This document shows, one piece after another, positions 4,993 through 22,648 of a DNA stretch of 32,861 nucleotides. The notes under the pieces were generated by a model. That model was not told the DNA's origin and made no database searches. It saw only the letters and a list, made by a program, of their open reading frames with translations. A program made the translations under genes and the position numbers. The stretch is from assembly GCA_015068825.1 (NCBI GenBank), contig SVJU01000020.1, positions 1 through 32,861 of the forward strand, in the 5' to 3' direction. The DNA comes from Oscillospiraceae bacterium (GTDB lineage Bacteria > Bacillota > Clostridia > UMGS1810). Positions within the stretch are counted from its first letter, which is position 1. Each line of letters begins with the position of its first letter.

Positions 4993-5376
4993 ATGGATAT
5001 TGCAAGAATTTCGGTTGTGGCGGTTATAACAGTTCTTTTGATTGCTGTTATAAAACCAAATAAAAAGGAATTTGCTATAACGCTTTCAATAATTTTTGGA
5101 ATTTTTTCGTTCTGGTTTGTATTTTCGTATCTTAAAACAATAATTGAAACCATAAATTTTGTTTTGGAAAAAATAAACCTCGATGTAACTATATTTTCTA
5201 TAATAATAAAAATTATTTTTGTTGCATATATTTGCGAGTTTGCGTCAAATATATGCCGTGATGCAGGCGAGGTGAGTATTGCCACAAAGTTGGAACTTTG
5301 CGGAAAAATAATTATAGTTTATATGTCACTTCCTATTGTTGAAGCAGTTATAAATCTTTTAATCAGTGTTTTATAA
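4993..5376 (+). CDS. spoIIIAD: Stage III sporulation protein SpoIIIAD
   Basis: A 127-residue membrane protein with several hydrophobic segments and the conserved C-terminal region FASNICRDAGEVSIATKLELCGK. It is related to SpoIIIAC and is part of the same channel. Only two bases separate it from the spoIIIAC stop, with no good ribosome site of its own, so it is probably translated by coupling. Confidence 0.92.
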   Translation: MDIARISVVAVITVLLIAVIKPNKKEFAITLSIIFGIFSFWFVFSYLKTIIETINFVLEKINLDVTIFSIIIKIIFVAYICEFASNICRDAGEVSIATKLELCGKIIIVYMSLPIVEAVINLLISVL

Positions 5377-5389
5377 CGGAGATGGAAAA

Positions 5390-6535
5390 ATGAAAAAACA
5401 AATGATTTTAATTCTGGTTATGCTTGTTGTATTATCTTTTTTTAAAACTGTATATGCAAATGAATATATTGATGAATTTATAAATTCCGAAAGAATAGAA
5501 AAACTTTCTGATATATCAGAAAAAAATGATAATATAAATAAGATTTATGATGACTTTTCTTTTGTTGATTTTGTAAATAATATAGTAAGCTCAAAAAGTG
5601 TTTTTGATGCAGAGAGTATTTTTATTAAAATAAGTAAAGTGTTTTTTGACGAAATTTACAAAAACATTGCCACCTTGAGCATACTAATAATCCTTTCAAT
5701 TATAAGTATGCTTATAACAAATTTAAATACATCATTTAATTCAAAAACAACAGGTGAAATTGCGTTTTTTGCATTTTATCTTGCATATACAGGAATATTA
5801 TCGGCAGGATTTTTTTCGTGTTATGAAAGTGCAAAAAGGGTTATAGATGAGCAAAGTGCTTTTATGCAGGCGGCAACACCAACTTATATAAGTATGCTTA
5901 TTATGACATCAAACGTTGGAACAAGCTCTGTTATAAAGCCACTGTTTTTATATTTTATATCGGTTATAACCTCTGTTACGCAAAAAATTTTACTCCCTTT
6001 AACAATTATAATTTTTGTTTTGTCGGTGGTAAATAATCTGTCACAAAGGGTGCAGATAACAAAGCTTATAAATTTATTAAGGCTTATTGTAAAAAAATCA
6101 CTTATGGTTCTTACAACGCTTTTTATAACTATGATATCGCTTGCAGGATTTGGTGCATCACAATTAGATAAACTTGGAGTAAAAGTTGCAAAATATGCAG
6201 TAGGAAATTTTGTTCCTGTTGTTGGGGGAATTTTAACAAGCACAGTTGATACGGTTACATCATCATTCATACTTTTAAAAAATGCACTTGGTGTGGCAGG
6301 AATTGTTGTTATAGCACTAATTTGTGCATATCCTGTTATAAAGTTTATTGCACTTGTTTTTATATATAAGCTTGCATCTGGTCTTATTGAGGTTTTTGGC
6401 GAAAAAAGAATAAGTGATGCGGTATCGGATGCCTCTGAGAGTATATCGCTTATTTTTACAATGATTTTGTGTATAAGCATTATGTTTATACTTAGTATAA
6501 CGGTTTTAATACAATTTGCAAAAGGAGCTGTTTAA
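5390..6535 (+). CDS. spoIIIAE: Stage III sporulation protein SpoIIIAE
   Basis: The largest membrane subunit of the SpoIIIA complex (381 residues): an N-terminal signal-like helix, an extracytoplasmic stretch, then about seven hydrophobic segments including the conserved GNFVPVVGGILTSTVDTV. An open frame begins upstream at 5366, but the ATG at 5390 has the ribosome site GGAGATGG and begins with a good signal sequence (MKKQMILILVMLVVLSFF). Its 3' end carries the ribosome site of spoIIIAF. Confidence 0.93.
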   Translation: MKKQMILILVMLVVLSFFKTVYANEYIDEFINSERIEKLSDISEKNDNINKIYDDFSFVDFVNNIVSSKSVFDAESIFIKISKVFFDEIYKNIATLSILIILSIISMLITNLNTSFNSKTTGEIAFFAFYLAYTGILSAGFFSCYESAKRVIDEQSAFMQAATPTYISMLIMTSNVGTSSVIKPLFLYFISVITSVTQKILLPLTIIIFVLSVVNNLSQRVQITKLINLLRLIVKKSLMVLTTLFITMISLAGFGASQLDKLGVKVAKYAVGNFVPVVGGILTSTVDTVTSSFILLKNALGVAGIVVIALICAYPVIKFIALVFIYKLASGLIEVFGEKRISDAVSDASESISLIFTMILCISIMFILSITVLIQFAKGAV

Positions 6536-6536
6536 A

Positions 6537-6989
6537 ATAAAATACATATCGGATTATGTTTTAAATATTGCTTTTGTTATAATTTTAAATGTTATTGTAG
6601 AATCTGTTATGCCGTCAAATCATTTTAAAAAGTATGTAAAAAGTGTTATGGGACTTGTTGTGATTATTGTACTTGCAAATCCTGTTCTTAAGTTTTCTGA
6701 TTTTGACCTTCAGCTTGAAAAATATATTTTAAGTGATAGTTTTAATTACGAAGAGAGTGAAACAGAGGATAGTTTTTTTGAAGAAAATGTAAATGACGAA
6801 TTTGAAAAAAACTTATCTCAAAATATAAAAAAGGATATAGAAAATAATTTTGGTATTGAGTGCGAGGTTTTTGTTGAATGTGAAAATATTAATATTAAAA
6901 GTGTAAAAATTAAATGTGAAGAAAAAGATTTTTTAAACATAAAAAACCTTATTGACAAAAAATATGGTTTAGAGTGTGTAAAATATTAG
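6537..6989 (+). CDS. spoIIIAF: Stage III sporulation protein SpoIIIAF, probable AUA start
   Basis: A 150-residue protein with two N-terminal membrane helices and a soluble C-terminal domain that forms part of the channel ring region. The strong ribosome site AAAGGAG (6521-6527) is followed after 9 bases by ATA at 6537. Starting there gives MKYISDYVLN..., which lines up residue for residue with the remembered Bacillus SpoIIIAF N-terminus (MSFLTEWLTT...). The only in-frame ordinary start upstream is a TTG at 6516, which lies before the ribosome site. The next ATG (6609) would delete the first helix. A CTG at 6528 touches the ribosome site. The family call is firm; the start codon is inferred. 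Confidence 0.85.
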   Translation: MKYISDYVLNIAFVIILNVIVESVMPSNHFKKYVKSVMGLVVIIVLANPVLKFSDFDLQLEKYILSDSFNYEESETEDSFFEENVNDEFEKNLSQNIKKDIENNFGIECEVFVECENINIKSVKIKCEEKDFLNIKNLIDKKYGLECVKY

Positions 6990-7004: not shown

Positions 7005-7550
7005 ATGCAAAAAATATCAGAAATTTTAAAAAATATTTCTTTTAAAAAGAATAAAAACAGCTTGTTCATAATATTACTTATAGGAGTAATGCTTCTTCTT
7101 TTTAATAAAATGCTTTTAAGTGATGGCAACAAAAATGAAAAAAGTTTAAATAAACAGAGCTGTGAATATGAAAAAAACGAGGATGCCTCCGAAAAAAAGC
7201 TTGAAGAAATACTTGGAAAAATAGATGGTACAGGAAGAGTAAGTGTTATGATTACTTATGACAATTCAAAAGAATATGTTACCATAGCGGATACAAAATC
7301 GAGTATATCGGATAAAGGAGGAGATGACAAAAAGGATGTTTCAAACGAAAGAAACACCGTAATGGTAAAAAACTCGAGTGAGCAGACTCCGTTTATAAAA
7401 AATGAAATAAACCCAAAGGTCAGGGGAGTTTTAGTTGTTTGTGACGGAGCAAAAAACGATAAAGTAAAGCTTAATTTAAAAAAAGCAGTATGTGCAGCAT
7501 TGAATGTTGAATTGCACAAAGTTGAAATAATGCCTATGAAAGGAAAATAG
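7005..7550 (+). CDS. spoIIIAG: Stage III sporulation protein SpoIIIAG
   Basis: A 181-residue protein with one N-terminal membrane helix (SLFIILLIGVMLLLF) and an extracytoplasmic ring-building domain. The conserved EEILGKIDGTGRVSVMITYD and VRGVLVVCDGAKNDKVKLNLKKAVCAALNVELHKVEIMPM are typical of SpoIIIAG, the channel ring facing the intermembrane space. GAGGGA precedes the ATG. Confidence 0.92.
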   Translation: MQKISEILKNISFKKNKNSLFIILLIGVMLLLFNKMLLSDGNKNEKSLNKQSCEYEKNEDASEKKLEEILGKIDGTGRVSVMITYDNSKEYVTIADTKSSISDKGGDDKKDVSNERNTVMVKNSSEQTPFIKNEINPKVRGVLVVCDGAKNDKVKLNLKKAVCAALNVELHKVEIMPMKGK

Positions 7551-22140: not shown

Positions 22141-22594
22141 AATTTATTAAGTGATTAAGACATTTTAAAAACATATCAGTTTTTGATTGTGACAGCACAA
22201 GTGAAATTTCACTTGGTGATGTTGTGATAAGTTTTATATCAGCATCGCAATCGTATAATGGGTCAAGAATATTTTTTACAATAAATTCGGTATCAGAAAG
22301 ACCGTTTCCAACGATTGATATTTTGGTATTCATACCGTTAACTGTTAAAAAAATATCTTTTATATCATTCAGCGCTTTTAAAGCAGAAATCAGCATATTC
22401 TGGTTTATTGCAAAGGTTACTTTGCACTCTTTACTTGGGATGAAAGAGGTTGTTACCATACCCGATTTTATATTAAGGGGTGAAATTAAATTTAAAATTT
22501 TATATACAAAGTACGGATCACATTCTTTACACTCACAGCTTATAAGCGCTACATCATCTGTAACAAAAATACCTGTAACAGAGCTTTTTTCCAA
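22139..22594 (-). CDS. Orphan tandem-ACT protein resembling the regulatory part of aspartokinase
   Basis: 151 residues that read like the C-terminal regulatory half of aspartate kinase without the kinase: SVTGIFVTDDVALISC..., then KISIVGNGL and IKLITTSPSEISLVLSQSKTDMFLKCLNHLI. These regions bind lysine or threonine in aspartokinases. It is the last gene of the asd-dapA-dapB operon under a lysine riboswitch, so a role in feedback control of the pathway is plausible. The start is uncertain: TTG at 22594 is 12 bases from the strong AAGGAGA (22607-22613), while an in-frame ATT at 22600 has the better 6-7 base spacing. Confidence 0.75.
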   Translation of the reverse strand: MEKSSVTGIFVTDDVALISCECKECDPYFVYKILNLISPLNIKSGMVTTSFIPSKECKVTFAINQNMLISALKALNDIKDIFLTVNGMNTKISIVGNGLSDTEFIVKNILDPLYDCDADIKLITTSPSEISLVLSQSKTDMFLKCLNHLIN

Positions 22595-22648
22595 AGGAAT
22601 AACATCTCTCCTTAAAACTTTTATATAGTTACAAATGTGCTTTTATAA

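Follow-up and report, generated by a model that had tools for sequence, protein, structure and literature searches.

The window, the whole 32,861-nucleotide stretch of an Oscillospiraceae bacterium analyzed here (contig SVJU01000020.1), carries the genes spoIIIAE, spoIIIAF and spoIIIAG in that order, the last with a score below its own cut-off. The ORF at position 6537 is spoIIIAF, scoring above the cut-off with both TIGR02896 (67.6 bits, cut-off 61.3) and PF09581 (63.2 bits, cut-off 28.3). Position 3 of the TIGR02896 profile falls at 6546, which puts the ATA triplet at the proposed start one codon ahead of the first profile position. The features of the region are as follows.

5390..6535, + strand: spoIIIAE (TIGR02829, 261.9 bits), ATG start with GGAG; GTG at 5366 is an alternative
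6507..6509, + strand: TAA stop bounding the spoIIIAF frame on its upstream side (sequence)
6516..6518, + strand: in-frame TTG, the rival start, lacking a usable Shine-Dalgarno (SD) site (SD energy -2.9)
6521..6527, + strand: SD site AAAGGAG, within the last codons of spoIIIAE (sequence, SD energy)
6533..6535, + strand: spoIIIAE stop TAA, between the SD and the ATA, 1 nucleotide 5' of the ATA (sequence)
6537..6539, + strand: proposed AUA start codon of spoIIIAF (gapless alignment with the ATG of three relatives, G001, G005 and G006; SD energy -7.8)
6537..6989, + strand: coding sequence of spoIIIAF, proposed ATA start through TAG stop (TIGR02896, 67.6 bits; PF09581, 63.2 bits)
7005..7550, + strand: spoIIIAG, the next operon gene (TIGR02830, 103.9 bits, below the cut-off of 147.7)

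A preliminary description had noted that the AAAGGAG site has no canonical start at a usable distance, that ATA lies 9 bases beyond it, and that the in-frame TTG is upstream of the ribosome site, and the sequence bears out each of these statements. Downstream of the SD, positions 6528 to 6545 contain no ATG, GTG or TTG in any of the three frames, and the spacing from AAAGGAG to ATA is 9 nucleotides. Near the SpoIIIAF N-terminus, no in-frame codon other than the TTG at 6516 is a canonical start. The SD pairing energy is -7.8 kcal/mol for the ATA versus -2.9 for this TTG. The SD is otherwise ordinary, as -7.8 is the median of the best canonical SD energies among sampled genes, and the hairpin predicted over the SD and ATA is weak (z -1.74, with 13 of 200 shuffled sequences as stable).

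A search for spoIIIAF in 60 relatives gave 30 genomes with a match, including the genome under study (G000), and thus 29 relatives were compared. Three genomes of the same family have a clear SpoIIIAF match, and one of these, G001, is another species of the same genus whose SpoIIIAF is 44% identical. In all three (G001, G005, G006) the ATG start aligns without gaps with the ATA. The preliminary description had reported such an ungapped N-terminus against Bacillus SpoIIIAF, and it holds with these relatives in place of Bacillus. As a yardstick, we used the number of residues from the start to the conserved proline with which the first membrane segment ends. This distance is 26 from the ATA and 33 from the TTG, whereas it is 26 in G001, G005 and G006 and 22-28 in 26 of the 29 relatives; the remaining three (L028, L029, L030) are without a comparable proline.

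Comparing the codon in close relatives, which had been proposed as a check, upheld the position of the start, through the gapless ATG in three genomes, but not the AUA codon itself. The spoIIIAF start is ATG, GTG or TTG in 29/29 relatives, including ATG in the same-genus species. A single-protein scan of genome contigs for further loci gave no match. A second scan, with the spoIIIAE alignment as the query, found 12 loci, all 12 with a canonical spoIIIAF start, although three seem to be the contigs already compared as G001, G005 and G006. The near-cognate codon is therefore not conserved, being found only in this genome among those compared. Thus, the ATA appears to be the right position for the start of spoIIIAF, while the codon itself is confined to this one species of those compared.

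Near-cognate codons at apparent starts are found elsewhere in the genome. We sampled 724,941 bases, including the window, in which a simple codon-usage gene finder called 572 genes. Genes were then selected that have a strong SD close to where coding begins but no canonical start at that place (an orphan SD), a selection that is blind to near-cognate codons. Ten of the 572 genes were found, and nine of these carry ATA, ATT, ATC, ACG or CTG in frame 4-9 nucleotides downstream. Near-cognate codons make up 11 of the 20 in-frame codons at this distance after orphan SDs, versus 177 of 1906 after internal SD-like sites (binomial p 3e-7). The spoIIIAF gene shows the same arrangement: where its SD would place the start, AUG, GUG and UUG are missing and an in-frame codon is near-cognate. 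Of the nine candidates, C16 (118 codons) is probably only a piece of a gene; infC is an already known case.

The same procedure gave 0/230 genes for G005, 0/142 for G051 and 2/140 for G056 (one with a near-cognate codon), but the samples from these genomes are smaller, two of them with a higher GC content, so we do not claim the excess over other genomes as proven. For G001 the result was 4/175, which is a biased rate because the sample had contigs fetched for tsaD, rsmG, infC and spoIIIAF. A reciprocal-match comparison of G000 and G001 yielded 131 pairs, many of them antisense shadow ORFs, and was not used as a denominator. Coupling to an upstream gene was considered as a distinguishing mark of near-cognate genes and rejected, as an upstream stop lies within -30 to +40 nucleotides at 5 of 10 near-cognate candidates versus 228 of 439 canonical genes. 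Such a stop is thus common in the genome and not enriched, but coupling still fits the anatomy of spoIIIAF.

Several other ORFs were noticed along the way. On the - strand of the window, an ORF at 22141-22642 has AAGGAG followed by ATT 7 nucleotides and TTG 13 nucleotides later, possibly another near-cognate start. Elsewhere in the genome, a - strand ORF of C36 (20516-22043, strand coordinates of the joined stretch), which from the look of its sequence we take to be a kinase-like membrane protein, lacks a canonical start over 45 codons and carries GGGGAG before ATT. A lipoprotein-like ORF (C2:2324-3695) has AAGGAGGTGG with CTG/ATA at the start position.

Near-cognate starts are also present in the second species of the genus. 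Five genes are listed below with the codon at the aligned position in the genome under study and in G001, respectively. The names yidC, tsaD, rsmG and infC come from family models, and yycI is a probable assignment from the look of the sequence.

infC: ATC/ATC; 13/13 family genomes with a match have ATC, and G006 also has TTG two codons upstream
tsaD (L121; G000 C3): ACG/ACG; 11 others have ATG or TTG
rsmG (L154; G000 C9:38658-39354): ATT/ATC; 12/13 others canonical, G005 being ambiguous, with ATA aligned and GTG three codons upstream
yidC (L194; G000 C9:33673-34642): ATC/ATT; 11 others canonical, and in G001 a TTG without an SD lies upstream
yycI (L204; G000 C12): ACG/ATA; 12 others canonical, and G001 also has GTG with a weak SD (-3.1 vs -7.8)

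With a near-cognate codon in both species, none of the five genes is readily put down to misassembly. The rsmG, yidC and yycI codons differ between the two species yet avoid ATG, GTG and TTG in both, and sequencing error hardly explains them. In the portions of the literature consulted, near-cognate starts of yidC, tsaD, rsmG or yycI are not reported for any bacterium. Of our findings, this cluster of near-cognate starts conserved within the genus holds the greater interest and deserves following up.

We consider it probable that spoIIIAF starts at the AUA at 6537. This reading is supported by the alignment with the ATG of family members, the start-to-proline distance, the position of the SD and the near-cognate starts in the same genome. 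Anatomy, homology and the lack of another good start are direct observations, as are the near-cognate starts elsewhere in the genome and genus; initiation at the AUA, its coupling to spoIIIAE and its yield are inferred. The AAAGGAG site would position initiator fMet-tRNA on the AUA, where it would pair with the first two bases. Ribosomes terminating spoIIIAE translation one nucleotide earlier would probably supply or open the spoIIIAF site, a form of translational coupling. SpoIIIAF would then be made in full length, N-terminal membrane segment included, at a low but sufficient level.

It is rather unlikely that base 6539 is misassembled, or represents a minority or recent strain variant of a species that normally has ATG. 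The canonical starts in the same-genus species and in all other relatives examined speak for this explanation, as does the fact that the genome is a 62-contig draft. However, with several other near-cognate starts in the genome, and five genes near-cognate in G001 as well, such a state is unexceptional here, and frequent random error would break many genes; by impression rather than count, no such breakage was noticed. Quite unlikely, in our estimation, is translation from the TTG at 6516, which would add seven residues and overlap spoIIIAE by 20 nucleotides without an SD. This TTG is a legal start codon, is in frame and is the one chosen by a mechanical ORF finder, but its SD energy is only -2.9, its proline distance of 33 is outside the 22-28 of 26/29 relatives, and its use would leave the AAAGGAG site unexplained.

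The end of spoIIIAE also invites comparison with prfB, since an SD-like site lies just 5' of the last sense codon and stop (GGAG-CT-GTT-TAA) and spoIIIAF follows in the +1 frame. Were ribosomes to shift by +1 at this site, SpoIIIAE would be fused to SpoIIIAF. The prfB type has a slippery last codon that re-pairs in the +1 frame and an SD 3 nucleotides upstream, and the spoIIIAE end has neither feature; GUU re-pairs poorly with UUU, and the spacing from GGAG to GTT is 2 nucleotides. Moreover, spoIIIAF of the same-genus relative begins at an ATG of its own, which overlaps the spoIIIAE stop as TAATG. We regard such a fusion as very improbable.

If spoIIIAF does start at the AUA, a reduced yield of SpoIIIAF is to be expected, because AUA and AUU starts in S. 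aureus give about 10% of the output of AUG. The available part of the S. aureus report gives this reporter value for ccpN (AUA), cvfC1 (AUU) and citZ (AUA), with ccpN reaching up to 30% in rich medium (PMC13009471). The preliminary description had suggested that a weak start could set the stoichiometry of the SpoIIIA ring. This idea is not supported, because the AUA is not conserved and B. subtilis tolerates low levels of SpoIIIA proteins; tuning accounts for the data no better than tolerance does. In the portion of the study consulted, B. subtilis with 5-10-fold less SpoIIIAA or SpoIIIAE sporulates normally, as does a strain with low SpoIIIAF, for which the data are not shown in the paper (PMC2703783). 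Normal sporulation at low protein levels makes a weak spoIIIAF start tolerable and the stoichiometry idea unneeded, so weak AUA initiation is more likely tolerated than selected.

A broader explanation, which we advance tentatively and as possible rather than probable, is that start-codon stringency is lowered throughout the genus. Near-cognate AUA, AUU, AUC and ACG starts would then serve about 1% or more of genes, including the usually essential yidC and tsaD, and would drift among near-cognate codons between species, with the spoIIIAF AUA as one draw. As to the cause of any such tolerance, IF3, RsmH and RsmI look ordinary. Deletion of RsmI or RsmH in E. coli raises AUU mis-initiation, according to the part of the source consulted (PMC13317604), but loss of either was rejected as a cause since both genes are present in this genome and in G001. 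Altered IF3 was likewise rejected, as only two columns, both unremarkable, set the two species of the genus apart from the other 11 sequences. The initiator tRNA was absent from the sampled stretches, and the single tRNA-Met found (L050) looks like an elongator.

Gene-calling programs limited to ATG, GTG and TTG would mis-start or truncate such genes. Canonical-only calling would make spoIIIAF seven residues too long and would cost tsaD about 28 residues. A published survey, in the part consulted, compared 36 groups of close genomes and found that only one of 61,358 reconstructed AUG starts had changed to AUU, a figure limited by annotation (PMC5622118). That a single genus has five orthologous near-cognate starts, the infC one being of a known type, suggests that the true rate in some lineages is higher than surveyed.

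Near-cognate starts are already known from infC, pcnB and ccpN, and the AUA proposed for spoIIIAF adds a case. The AUU starts of E. coli infC and pcnB are thought to keep expression low, and infC is autoregulated by IF3. SpoIIIAF, in contrast, is not known to have a regulatory loop. The closest likeness is to S. aureus and B. subtilis ccpN and S. aureus citZ and infC (AUA) and cvfC1 (AUU), which also have a near-cognate start behind an SD in Bacillota. As far as the consulted text of that work goes, the S. aureus starts have extended SDs, whereas the spoIIIAF SD is ordinary; the ccpN and cvfC1 codons are conserved, whereas the spoIIIAF AUA is not; and initiation in S. aureus was demonstrated by Ribo-Ret and reporters, whereas the spoIIIAF start is proposed here from sequence (PMC13009471). 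An extended SD is not present in every known near-cognate case, and conservation is supporting rather than required. With spoIIIAF of other Clostridia and Bacilli, the gene shares its identity, its place in the operon and its N-terminal length, and it differs in its proposed ATA start, where all 29 relatives have ATG, GTG or TTG.
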